In this document: positions 56,578 to 64,000 of the stretch, one piece after another | How the letters are laid out: each line of letters begins with the position of its first letter | Numbering within the stretch: the stretch's first letter is position 1 | From: Pedobacter sp. MC2016-05 | GTDB lineage: Bacteria; Bacteroidota; Bacteroidia; Sphingobacteriales; Sphingobacteriaceae | Assembly: GCF_026239735.1 (NCBI RefSeq) | Contig: NZ_JAPIVT010000001.1 | Coordinates: 186,001 to 250,000 of the forward strand | DNA: 64,000 nt | Reading direction: 5' to 3' | Notes under the pieces: generated by a model | Databases searched by the model: none | Seen by the model: only the letters and a program-made list of their open reading frames with translations | What the model was told of the DNA's origin: nothing | Position numbers and translations under genes: made by a program

Positions 56578-56948
56578 AAGCTTTCCACGTCTCAATAATT
56601 AATAAGTTATTTTAAATAAATAAATCTTGTTTGTTTATTAGTGTGTTGGTAACGTTGGTAAGTTTATTAAAAACGTTCTTCAATGTAAGTTGTTAATCGT
56701 TTACTAACATTTAGATTACATTTTTGTAATATGATGAGATTGATTTTCAGCACTATCGAAAAACCGGTTAATTTTTCTCCATAGTGGAATGTTAATTGTT
56801 TATAAGTGTGTGAAAAGTTAATTACTTGTACAAAGGTGCTTAAAAATTGAGTAAAAGATTGTGGCAAATTGTCTTTTTAGAGTAGCTTTAAACATTCAAA
56901 TTTATTTGTTAGTCTTATTTCTACATAAAGCTAACAGTTGTTCTATAG

Positions 56949-56967
56949 TTATCAACAACGTTGATAA
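56949..56967. promoter_or_regulatory. Candidate operator palindrome before nadB
   Basis: TTATCAAC and GTTGATAA are perfect complements around AAC. Position and symmetry suit a dimeric regulator controlling nadB and perhaps nadA. One half also resembles a DnaA box with one mismatch, which is a weaker reading. Confidence 0.45.
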
Positions 56968-56983
56968 AGTAAATGTTTTTTAG

Positions 56984-58570
56984 ATGAGAAAAGTAGATTT
57001 TCTGGTAATTGGTTCAGGGATAGCGGGTTTAAGTTTTGCACTTAAGGCGGCCAAATTTGGTAAGGTTTTAATTGTTACCAAATCAAATGAAGATGAATCA
57101 AATACAAAATATGCGCAAGGTGGTGTCGCAGTTGTTGTTGATAAAGATGATTCTTTCGACAAACATATACACGATACCTTGATTGCCGGCGACGGTTTAT
57201 GCGATGAAAAAATTGTGGAAATCGTTGTAAAAGAGGGGCCTCAACGTATTCAGGAGATTATTGACTATGGTATAAATTTCGATAAGGATAACTCAGGTTT
57301 CTATGATTTGGCCAAAGAAGGGGGCCACTCCGAACACCGTGTTCTACACTATAAAGACATCACCGGATATGAAATTGAACGGGTACTCCTAAAAGAAATT
57401 CATGAGAATCCGAACATAGAGATATTAACACATTACTTTGCACTAGAGTTGATCACTCAGCATCACCTGGGTGAGTTTGTTGATAAACGTACTGAAGATA
57501 TTAACTGTTATGGGATATATGCCTTTAACACAGAGCTTAACGATGTGGAAAAGATTGTTGCAAACGTTACAGTTATGGCTTCGGGCGGTGCCGGGCATGT
57601 CTATTCTGCCACAACAAACCCTGTAATTGCCACAGGTGATGGTATGGCGATGGTTTACCGAGCAAAGGGAAAAGTAAGGAATATGGAGTTTATTCAGTTC
57701 CACCCAACTGCTTTGTACCATCCCGGAGAGTATCCTTCCTTCCTAATTTCTGAAGCCGTTCGTGGTTTTGGAGGTGTTCTCCGCCGTAAAAATGGTGAAG
57801 AATTTATGCATGAATATGATGAGCGTAAATCATTAGCACCTCGTGATATTGTTGCTAGGGCAGTTGATAATGAAATGAAAAAATCTGGTGATGAATTTGT
57901 TTATCTAGACATCACGATGCGGAAGAAGGCAGATATTTTAAAACACTTTCCCAATATATATGCCAAGTGTTTATCTATTGGTATTGATATGACAAAGGAT
58001 TATATACCAGTCACGCCGGCATCCCATTATATGTGCGGAGGAATTTTAGTTGATGAATACGGAAGATCTTCTATCAATAACCTTTACGCCTGTGGTGAGG
58101 TTTCTTCCACTGGTTTGCATGGTGCTAATCGGTTGGCTTCTAACTCGTTACTGGAGGCAACTGTTTTTGCACATCGAATTTATCAGGATGCCGTTGAAAA
58201 CTTCAAAAATAATGTAATTCCTGAAAATATTCCAGAATGGGATTCTCAAGGGGTTACACAAAGCAATGAAGACGTTCTAGTGACCCACAATTTAAGAGAG
58301 TTGCAGAAAGTAATGGGTGATTATGTTGGTATAGTTCGTTCTGATTTTCGTTTAGAAAGGGCACACCGGAGACTATTTTTAATTTATCAGGAAACCGAAG
58401 AGTTCTATAAAAAGAACAAGGTTTCGGTGAAGCTTTGCGAACTGAGGAATGTAATTCAGACAGCTTATTTAGTCATAAAATCAGCCATGAAGCGTAAAGA
58501 AAGCAGAGGTTTGCATTTTACAACTGATTACCCTGAGCACGCTAAAGAGTTAATTGATACTGTGTTTTAA
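56984..58570 (+). CDS. nadB: L-aspartate oxidase
   Basis: An FAD enzyme that oxidises aspartate to iminoaspartate, the first step of NAD synthesis, 528 aa. It has GSGIAGLSFALKAAKFG, NTKYAQGGVAVVV, EGGHSEHRVLHYKDITGYEI, MASGGAGHVYSATTNP, EFIQFHPTALYHPGEYPSFL, GANRLASNSLLEATVFAHR and the C-terminal helical bundle. The product feeds NadA, encoded divergently. Confidence 0.96.
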   Translation: MRKVDFLVIGSGIAGLSFALKAAKFGKVLIVTKSNEDESNTKYAQGGVAVVVDKDDSFDKHIHDTLIAGDGLCDEKIVEIVVKEGPQRIQEIIDYGINFDKDNSGFYDLAKEGGHSEHRVLHYKDITGYEIERVLLKEIHENPNIEILTHYFALELITQHHLGEFVDKRTEDINCYGIYAFNTELNDVEKIVANVTVMASGGAGHVYSATTNPVIATGDGMAMVYRAKGKVRNMEFIQFHPTALYHPGEYPSFLISEAVRGFGGVLRRKNGEEFMHEYDERKSLAPRDIVARAVDNEMKKSGDEFVYLDITMRKKADILKHFPNIYAKCLSIGIDMTKDYIPVTPASHYMCGGILVDEYGRSSINNLYACGEVSSTGLHGANRLASNSLLEATVFAHRIYQDAVENFKNNVIPENIPEWDSQGVTQSNEDVLVTHNLRELQKVMGDYVGIVRSDFRLERAHRRLFLIYQETEEFYKKNKVSVKLCELRNVIQTAYLVIKSAMKRKESRGLHFTTDYPEHAKELIDTVF

Positions 58571-60952: not shown

Positions 60953-62815
60953 TTACTTACCAATGTAGACCATTAATACAGAGATATCTGATGGTGATAC
61001 ACCAGAAATTCTTGATGCCTGGCCTAAAGTACGTGGTTTTATTTTGAATAACTTTTCACGGGCTTCTTTTGAGATGGAAACAATTTTATTGTAGTCGAAA
61101 TCAGGTTTGATTTCCTTATCTTCCATTTTCAACATTTTGGCTACTATCTCATTTTCTTTTTCAAAATAACTCTCATATTTAATTTTGATTTCCGCTTGCT
61201 CTATTGTTTCATTATCTAAATCTTTGGTGGCTTCAGCCAATGGTTTACTTACTTTTATAAGATCTTGTAAGCCCACATGTGGACGCCCAGCTAAACTATG
61301 AATTTTTACATTTTGATTTAAGATACTCGAACCTAAGCCTTCTAACATAGGATTAGCATCAGCCATTTCTATGCCCTGACTTCTGGTGAATTTGACCAAG
61401 GTTTCTGCTGCTTCGACTTTACGTTTAACTTTTTCTAAACGTTCATCAGATATAAGACCTAACTCATGTCCGATAGGAGATAAGCGAATGTCAGCATTAT
61501 CTTGTCTCAACAATAAACGATGTTCCGCTCTAGAGGTAAACATTCGATAAGGTTCGTCAGTTCCTTTGGTTACTAAATCATCAATTAAAACCCCAATATA
61601 ACTGTCTGATCTTTTCATAATCAGCTCATGCTTGTCATTAATTTTTTGATGCGCATTGATACCAGCCATGAAGCCCTGGCAAGCTGCTTCTTCATACCCT
61701 GTGGTTCCATTAATTTGACCAGCTAGGAATAAATTATTTATTAACTTAGTTTCTAGGGTAAGTGATAATTGGGTAGGAGGGAAGAAATCGTATTCGATAG
61801 CATAGCCAGGTCTGAACATTTTTGCATTTTCAAAACCTGGAATTAATCGAAGAGCTCTTTGCTGTACATCTTCTGGAAGAGAAGTTGAAAAACCATTTAC
61901 GTAAATTTCGCAGGTGTTCCATCCTTCAGGCTCTACAAAAATTTGGTGTCGGTCGCGTTCTGCAAAACGGTTAATTTTGTCTTCAATGGAAGGACAGTAC
62001 CTTGGGCCTAAACCTTTAATTCTACCCGTAAACATTGGCGATTTTTCGAATCCTTCTTTCAGAGTTTCGTGCACATCCCCATTAGTATAAGTAATCCAGC
62101 AGCAACGTTGATCTGTTGAAACTTCAGTATCTGTGAAAGAAAACTTACCGGGATTTTCGTCGCCCCACTGTTCTTCCATTTTGGTATAGTCTAAACTTCG
62201 GCCATCCACCCGTGGAGGAGTACCTGTTTTCATTCTACCAGCTTCCATTCCGAGTTCCACTAATTGTTCTGTAATTCCAGTTGATGCTCTTTCTGCTGTT
62301 CTGCCTCCACCAAATTTCTTTTCACCGATATGCATCACACCATTTAAGAAAGTGCCGTTAGTAAGTACTACTGCTATACTTTCGATCTCCATTCCCAAAG
62401 ATGTTTTTACTCCATAGATTGTATTATCTTTAACTAACAAACCAACAACACTGTCTTGCCATAAATCGACGTTGGGAGTTCTTTCTAACGCTAAGCGCCA
62501 TTCCTCAGCAAAGCGCATTCTGTCAATTTGTGCTCTCGGACTCCACATCGCAGGGCCTTTTGACTTGTTTAACATTCTAAATTGAATGGTTGATTTATCA
62601 GATATAATTCCTGAATAGCCACCCATCGCATCTACCTCGCGAACAATCTGTCCTTTCGCTACACCACCCATTGCTGGGTTACAACTCATCTGGGCTATGG
62701 TACCCATATTCATTGTGATCAATAGAACTGATGAGCCTAAGTTGGCGGCAGCGGCAGCAGCTTCGCATCCTGCATGTCCAGCACCAACAACAATCAAATC
62801 GTATTTTGAAAACAT
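60953..62815 (-). CDS. mnmG: tRNA uridine-5-carboxymethylaminomethyl modification enzyme MnmG
   Basis: An FAD enzyme that, with MnmE, modifies the wobble uridine of several tRNAs, 620 aa. It has [12 protein letters not shown] at 11-22, [48 protein letters not shown] and the C-terminal [18 protein letters not shown]. The gene often lies near the replication origin, which fits the two parS-like sites just upstream. Confidence 0.97.
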
Positions 62816-62830
62816 TTTCTCTTTCTATTA

Positions 62831-62846
62831 TGTTCCACGTGGAACA
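62831..62846. promoter_or_regulatory. parS-like ParB-binding site 1
   Basis: TGTTCCACGTGGAACA is a perfect 16-bp palindrome and fits the bacterial parS consensus TGTTnCACGTGnAACA exactly. It lies 15 nt upstream of the mnmG start codon. Confidence 0.85.
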
Positions 62847-62926
62847 ATTGTGTTATTTATTTGGTATGTAACCTATTAAAGCATTCTGAAGATTTGTAAA
62901 TAAACTTGTATTAGTTGCGGGTTAAA

Positions 62927-62942
62927 TGTTCCACGTGAAACG
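62927..62942. promoter_or_regulatory. parS-like ParB-binding site 2
   Basis: TGTTCCACGTGAAACG fits the parS consensus at 15 of 16 positions. It lies 96 bp from site 1, centre to centre, between mnmG and the ABC-F gene. Confidence 0.8.
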
Positions 62943-62973
62943 TATCAATGGAATAACTAACTAATTTCCTTAT

Positions 62974-64000
62974 TTATTCTGATAATTCTAACCATCGCAT
63001 TGTATAATCATCCTGCTTAATCTTTAACTTTTCAATCTCATCCGAAATTTCTTGAATCTTCACATAATCGGAAGCAGCAACTTTTAGTAAACTTTGAGAT
63101 AATTTAGCTATCTTTTGTTCGGTATCTGTCATTCCCTTTTCGCATTCATTAAGTTCCTTTTGTTCTTTAAAACTTAATTTTTTTGCGCTTTTTATTGGAG
63201 CTTCAGCAGCTATAGGAGTGAAAGTTTTTTTGGCTTCGGCTTTAACTTTCGGTTGTTCTAAACTTAAACGGTACTCAGAATAATTACCATTATATATTTT
63301 TACTACTCCTTCACCTTCCATGATAAATAGCTGATCACTCATCTTGTCTAGTAAGTATCTATCATGAGAAACTAGCATTAAAATGCCAGGGAAGTTTTCT
63401 AGAAATTCTTCCAGTACATTTAACGTATCAATATCCAGGTCGTTTGTTGGCTCATCCAAAATTAAGAAGTTAGGATTTTGCATTAGAACCTTCATCAAAT
63501 TCAAGCGCTTCTTCTCGCCACCACTTAATTTTTCCACCATGCCATGTTGTTTCTTAGGCGGGAAAAGAAAAAGTGTTAGTAGGGCAGAAGCAGTAATTAC
63601 CGATCCATCAGCCATCTTAATATACTCGGCGTCTGATTTCACAATATCAATTACCCTCTCTTTTGGATCGAAAGTTAAACCGCCTTGTTTGTAATAACCA
63701 AAAACTGTCGTTTCACCAGTGTCAACTGTTCCTGCGTCTGGTGCTAGTTGGCTAGTAATAATATTTAATAGAGTAGATTTGCCAGTACCGTTTTTACCTG
63801 CCAAACCAATTCGATCTCCTTTTTTGAAAGTGTAGCTAAAATCATTAATAATTGGACGACCATCGAAAGACTTTGCTATGTGACCGATCTCAATAATTTT
63901 ACCACCCTGACGAGACATTTTCATTTGGAGGTTAATAGTCTGATTATCAGACTTCTTCCTGGTTTTTTCCTCCAGATCGTAAAAAGCATTGATCCTGGCG
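62974..64000 (-). CDS. ABC-F ATPase (Uup-like), 5' end missing
   Basis: The frame is open to the right edge of the window, so the start lies outside; upstream codons continue as YDLEEKTRKKSDNQTINLQ before the visible second ATPase domain. Visible are Walker A GKNGTGKST, signature LSGGEKKRLNLMKVLMQNP, Walker B FLILDEPTNDLD and a C-terminal coiled coil (ECEKGMTDTEQKIAKLSQS). This is the second half of a two-domain ABC-F protein, probably acting on ribosomes or on replication-linked structures as Uup does. Confidence 0.92.
   Translation of the reverse strand, partial: ARINAFYDLEEKTRKKSDNQTINLQMKMSRQGGKIIEIGHIAKSFDGRPIINDFSYTFKKGDRIGLAGKNGTGKSTLLNIITSQLAPDAGTVDTGETTVFGYYKQGGLTFDPKERVIDIVKSDAEYIKMADGSVITASALLTLFLFPPKKQHGMVEKLSGGEKKRLNLMKVLMQNPNFLILDEPTNDLDIDTLNVLEEFLENFPGILMLVSHDRYLLDKMSDQLFIMEGEGVVKIYNGNYSEYRLSLEQPKVKAEAKKTFTPIAAEAPIKSAKKLSFKEQKELNECEKGMTDTEQKIAKLSQSLLKVAASDYVKIQEISDEIEKLKIKQDDYTMRWLELSE

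Follow-up and report, generated by a model that had tools for sequence, protein, structure and literature searches.

The spacer upstream of mnmG in Pedobacter sp. MC2016-05 harbours two 16-bp palindromes that almost certainly represent a parS centromere marking the origin region of a Pedobacter-type chromosome. It is very probable that ParB binds both sites and that they form the chromosomal centromere by which the origin region is segregated first. What was observed directly is that the sites exist, that they are unique and conserved, that genes for ParA, ParB, SMC and ScpA are present, and where the sites lie relative to the GC skew in a congener. ParB binding, spreading, segregation and condensin loading at these sites would be expected by analogy with known ParABS biology. 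An earlier note on this DNA had described the palindromes as parS-like, and this identification stands: the pair is unique in the genome, ParA and ParB are encoded, and all 80 relatives analysed carry such sites.

Two palindromes in the mnmG spacer

The window (the whole stretch of 64,000 nucleotides that was analysed) ends within a gene for an ABC-F ATPase, and both sites lie between this gene and mnmG (Table 1). The gene mnmG, a positional neighbour of parS, encodes the tRNA uridine-5-carboxymethylaminomethyl(34) synthesis enzyme; the closest named protein is that of Pedobacter sp. Leaf41 (98% identity over the whole length), which agrees with an origin of the window in Pedobacter or a very close relative. 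The ABC-F gene is cut by the window end after 316 amino acids and is open for at least 479 amino acids in the contig.

Table 1 The two parS sites, their spacer and the flanking genes, in positions of the window
Feature	Position	Strand	Remarks
parS site 1, TGTTCCACGTGGAACA	62831-62846	.	perfect palindrome, 14/14 specified positions
parS site 2, TGTTCCACGTGAAACG	62927-62942	.	one mismatch, 13/14 specified positions
Spacer between ABC-F gene and mnmG	62816-62973	.	158 bp, contains both parS sites
mnmG (gidA)	60953-62815	minus	TIGR00136, E 2.9e-249, above cut-off
ABC-F ATPase gene	62974-64000	minus	upstream of mnmG, co-directional, continues beyond window end

The consensus TGTTNCACGTGNAACA is a 16-bp palindrome of which 14 of the 16 positions are specified. 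The match quality given in the earlier note was sound, while its scores of 16/16 and 15/16 have to be read as 14/14 and 13/14. Its coordinates were exact: the sites start 96 bp apart, and the end of site 1 is separated from the mnmG start codon, to which it lies upstream, by 15 nt.

At up to two mismatches the window contains two matches, a number that no shuffled sequence reached, against 0.17 expected. In the whole genome (5,565,015 bases in 58 contigs) sites 1 and 2 are the sole matches at up to one mismatch. Many equal matches spread over the genome, which would have spoken against a centromere, were thus not found; there are two neighbouring sites in 5.57 Mb, few and clustered as is typical for parS. 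Allowing two mismatches added 11 further matches, which is about the background level (9 for a reversed-pattern control). One two-mismatch 16-mer of this kind was seen in the 3' part of parB (G000:C5 113090-113105, inside L004, L011 and L261); at background level, it is probably a coding coincidence.

Given its base composition, a genome like this should contain 0.022 perfect and 0.97 one-mismatch sites by chance. Site 2 alone is therefore unremarkable, since about one such site is expected in a genome of this size and composition. The pairing of the sites is what chance cannot give, because a further site no more than 200 bp away has an expectation of 3.5e-5. The claim that chance matches are very unlikely accordingly holds for the pair and not for site 2 by itself. 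That both sites are chance matches to the consensus has a practically negligible probability, and this explanation is already refuted by the conservation of the sites.

Conservation of the sites and their address at mnmG

With the mnmG protein as query 80 named mnmG loci were retrieved from Pedobacter, Mucilaginibacter and relatives. All of them carry one to three parS sites in the 400 bp preceding mnmG (one in 4 loci, two in 69 and three in 7), so that a second site shares the spacer in 76 of the 80 relatives. Outside this region the flanking and coding DNA of these loci (872 kb) gave no parS match. In the Sphingobacteriaceae the proximal site mostly lies 8-21 nt from the start codon of mnmG, a nearly constant distance; the sites themselves are 24 to 218 bp apart. 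An apparent 11-bp signal of helical phasing in the spacings (R 0.36) was set aside, since related loci such as these have spacings in common.

When 36 Pedobacter spacers, including that of the window, were aligned, the conserved blocks were the two parS sites and an A-rich mnmG leader; the remainder differs in content and length. The segment between the sites (window 62847-62926) is highly variable in Pedobacter, and in some species it holds repeats resembling hairpins, with the pattern ATGCTGAA...TTCAGCAT. No conserved promoter-like block was found between the two sites in the 36 aligned spacers.

The phylum Bacteroidota was sampled with 44 genomes. Within the class, 22 other families contributed one representative each, and five more genomes, complete or nearly so, were added; 17 families outside the class supplied the rest. 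A 23rd family, without detectable mnmG, was left out. In this sample, which was drawn by a tool and not picked by result and whose members are not phylogenetically independent, 38 of 44 genomes have a parS site within 2 kb of mnmG, and 31 within 100 bp, as measured from coordinates. The sites are located only upstream of mnmG in 10 of the 38 genomes, only downstream in 13 and on both sides in 15. Candidate parS sites thus keep their address at mnmG across nearly the whole phylum.

Six genomes lack parS near mnmG (G040, G042, G045, G050, G060 and G070), and all six encode ParB. In G050 mnmG sits at the end of a contig, near mnmG of G045 there are no better than two-mismatch sites, and in G042 a perfect site is located 87 kb from mnmG on the same contig. 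G060, a genome of the same family in one contig, encodes ParB and has no site at mnmG (C1 15816-17660) at up to one mismatch; its only two one-mismatch matches are located 2-3 Mb from mnmG, and the control count is also 2.

In the Sphingobacteriaceae the proximal site, mostly 8-21 nt from the mnmG start, is near enough to interfere with transcription or translation. The gene might then be controlled by a transcription factor, or by ParB in this role, with the palindromes serving as the operators. This is considered unlikely. A shared operator function is not expected because in other families the sites can be found at either end of mnmG, and family-level representatives with downstream sites only are at least as frequent as those with upstream sites only. 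The variable intersite spacing, the missing promoter-like block in Pedobacter and the lack of further such sites in the genome also argue against an operator. An effect of ParB on mnmG expression, as suggested earlier from the 15-nt distance, is on the same grounds not favoured.

A more far-reaching reading of the centromere is offered tentatively, and is held to be possible rather than probable. The Bacteroidota centromere may be tied to mnmG itself, with sites lost and regained on either flank, dnaA and parAB moved away, and mnmG left as the fixed address for ParB loading. The sites are usually found within about 20-30 bp of the mnmG start or stop codon. It can be speculated that an oriC, transcription or local topology in or around mnmG could constrain parS placement.

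Partner proteins and proposed mechanism

A profile search revealed a single ParB gene above the family cut-off in the genome, on contig C5, with ParA adjoining it just upstream (L011 2147-2950). The earlier note had named the lack of a ParB homologue as a point that would overturn its reading; the homologue is present, beside ParA. The protein comprises ParB_N, HTH_ParB and ParB_C domains (N-terminal, HTH and C-terminal dimerisation) and carries the GERRFRA motif, the CTP-binding motif of the family. Genes for SMC, above the family cut-off, and ScpA are also encoded.

Residues Q162, G170, K171, R173, N178, G201 and R204 are in place, and at position 172 N replaces S; these were placed by spacing on the Caulobacter numbering of PMC7383237 and not by direct alignment to Caulobacter ParB. 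R173 and G201 are reported to be invariant in ParB and altered in Noc (PMC7383237). Judged from the sequence, the specificity residues R173 and G201 of the Pedobacter protein are of the parS type and not of the Noc type. This bears on the explanation that the palindromes are binding sites for Noc-type nucleoid occlusion rather than parS. Noc is related to ParB, and structures of Noc turned up when this ParB was compared with the PDB. However, the palindromes themselves are of the parS type, the single ParB gene stands beside ParA, and the two sites are clustered and not scattered. A Noc function is therefore regarded as exceedingly improbable.

ParB is known to nucleate on parS, bind CTP, spread, stimulate ParA so that the complex is moved, and recruit SMC (PMC7333895 (review)). 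By analogy, the ParB encoded with ParA on contig C5 would bind the two 16-bp palindromes, load as a CTP-dependent clamp and spread over the mnmG region. ParA would move the ParB-parS complex, SMC-ScpAB condensin would be recruited to parS by ParB, and the newly copied origin region would be segregated first.

Replication origin and comparison with known systems

The GC skew was sampled at 100 places in a complete congener, G019, a single contig of 5.95 Mb. A two-segment fit to 97 evenly sampled stretches placed the origin at 4.94 Mb and the terminus at 1.75 Mb (fit 0.299, against a maximum of 0.087 in 200 permutations). The parS sites of G019, at 4.927 Mb, lie some 15 kb or less from the fitted origin, which bears out the claim that such sites mark the origin region. 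Only 82% of bootstrap replicates put the origin within 150 kb of parS. The bias in gene strand turns over where the skew does. In G019 dnaA is located at position 125, about 1.02 Mb from parS, and parB at 5.69 Mb, about 0.77 Mb from parS. Three dnaA-family genes above cut-off were observed on C1 of G019 (125-1519, 2430623-2432017 and 2852795-2854189); in the genome of the window there is one.

On contig C1, which holds the window, the skew switches at 293 kb (bootstrap 255-373 kb) and the parS sites are at 248.8 kb. The switch is thus 6-125 kb from parS; it is clearly above permutations and not sharp. This is compatible with an origin at parS, although imprecise. A skew minimum far from the sites, stated earlier as an argument against an origin here, was therefore not seen in the congener, where the match is close, while the window's own contig gives a compatible and less precise answer.

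It could be argued that the parS sites are real and that replication starts elsewhere, for instance at dnaA, as dnaA is on contig C4 and parB on C5, neither on the parS contig, and the skew switch on C1 is broad. However, the skew of G019 is fitted much better by an origin at parS (1.26) than by one at dnaA (0.69) or parB (0.73). Furthermore, two reports on Flavobacteriaceae used Ori-Finder and GC skew and located oriC at mnmG, one in Mariniflexile litorale, where dnaA does not match the skew (PMC11278836), the other in Algorimicrobium (PMC12843772). In gut bacteria studied by Hi-C, origins were found to be marked by parS clusters and not always by dnaA (PMC10197239). An origin away from parS is thus judged very unlikely.

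No cluster of TTATCCACA-type DnaA boxes was found near parS. A loose and weak cluster of TTATCAACA-type boxes, about 5.5 kb from parS, was seen between nadA and nadB and in the first part of nadB (window 56797-57478); it may be due to chance.

Searches of the open-access literature gave no result for the replication origin of Pedobacter in connection with dnaA and GC skew, nor for parS sites and ParB in Bacteroidota, and no ParB-binding experiments in this phylum were found there; the parS-mnmG link may have been described before. The two sites are an ordinary chromosomal centromere of a known kind in the expected place. The part worth recording is that the conserved link of parS is with mnmG, and not with dnaA or parAB. 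Sites at mnmG provide an origin and centromere landmark for Bacteroidota chromosomes in which dnaA fails as one, draft assemblies included, and a concrete place to seek ParB and condensin loading in this phylum.

The system resembles the chromosomal ParABS systems of Bacillus, Caulobacter and many other bacteria in its 16-bp palindrome, the adjacent ParA, the presence of SMC and ScpA and the location in the origin region. As in those systems, ParB has the GERRxRA motif and parS-type specificity residues. The Pedobacter system differs from them in the distances of parAB and dnaA from parS seen in G019, and in that only two sites occur in the genome analysed here. A GC-skew origin beside mnmG is shared with Mariniflexile litorale and Algorimicrobium, and a dnaA gene away from the skew switch with Mariniflexile; unlike here, in Pedobacter, parS sites are not reported in the available parts of those two papers (PMC11278836; PMC12843772). 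With the gut bacteria, Bacteroidetes included, it has in common that a parS cluster marks the origin and dnaA does not always do so. That study detected no known condensin in its two Bacteroidetes (PMC10197239), whereas this genome encodes both SMC and ScpA.
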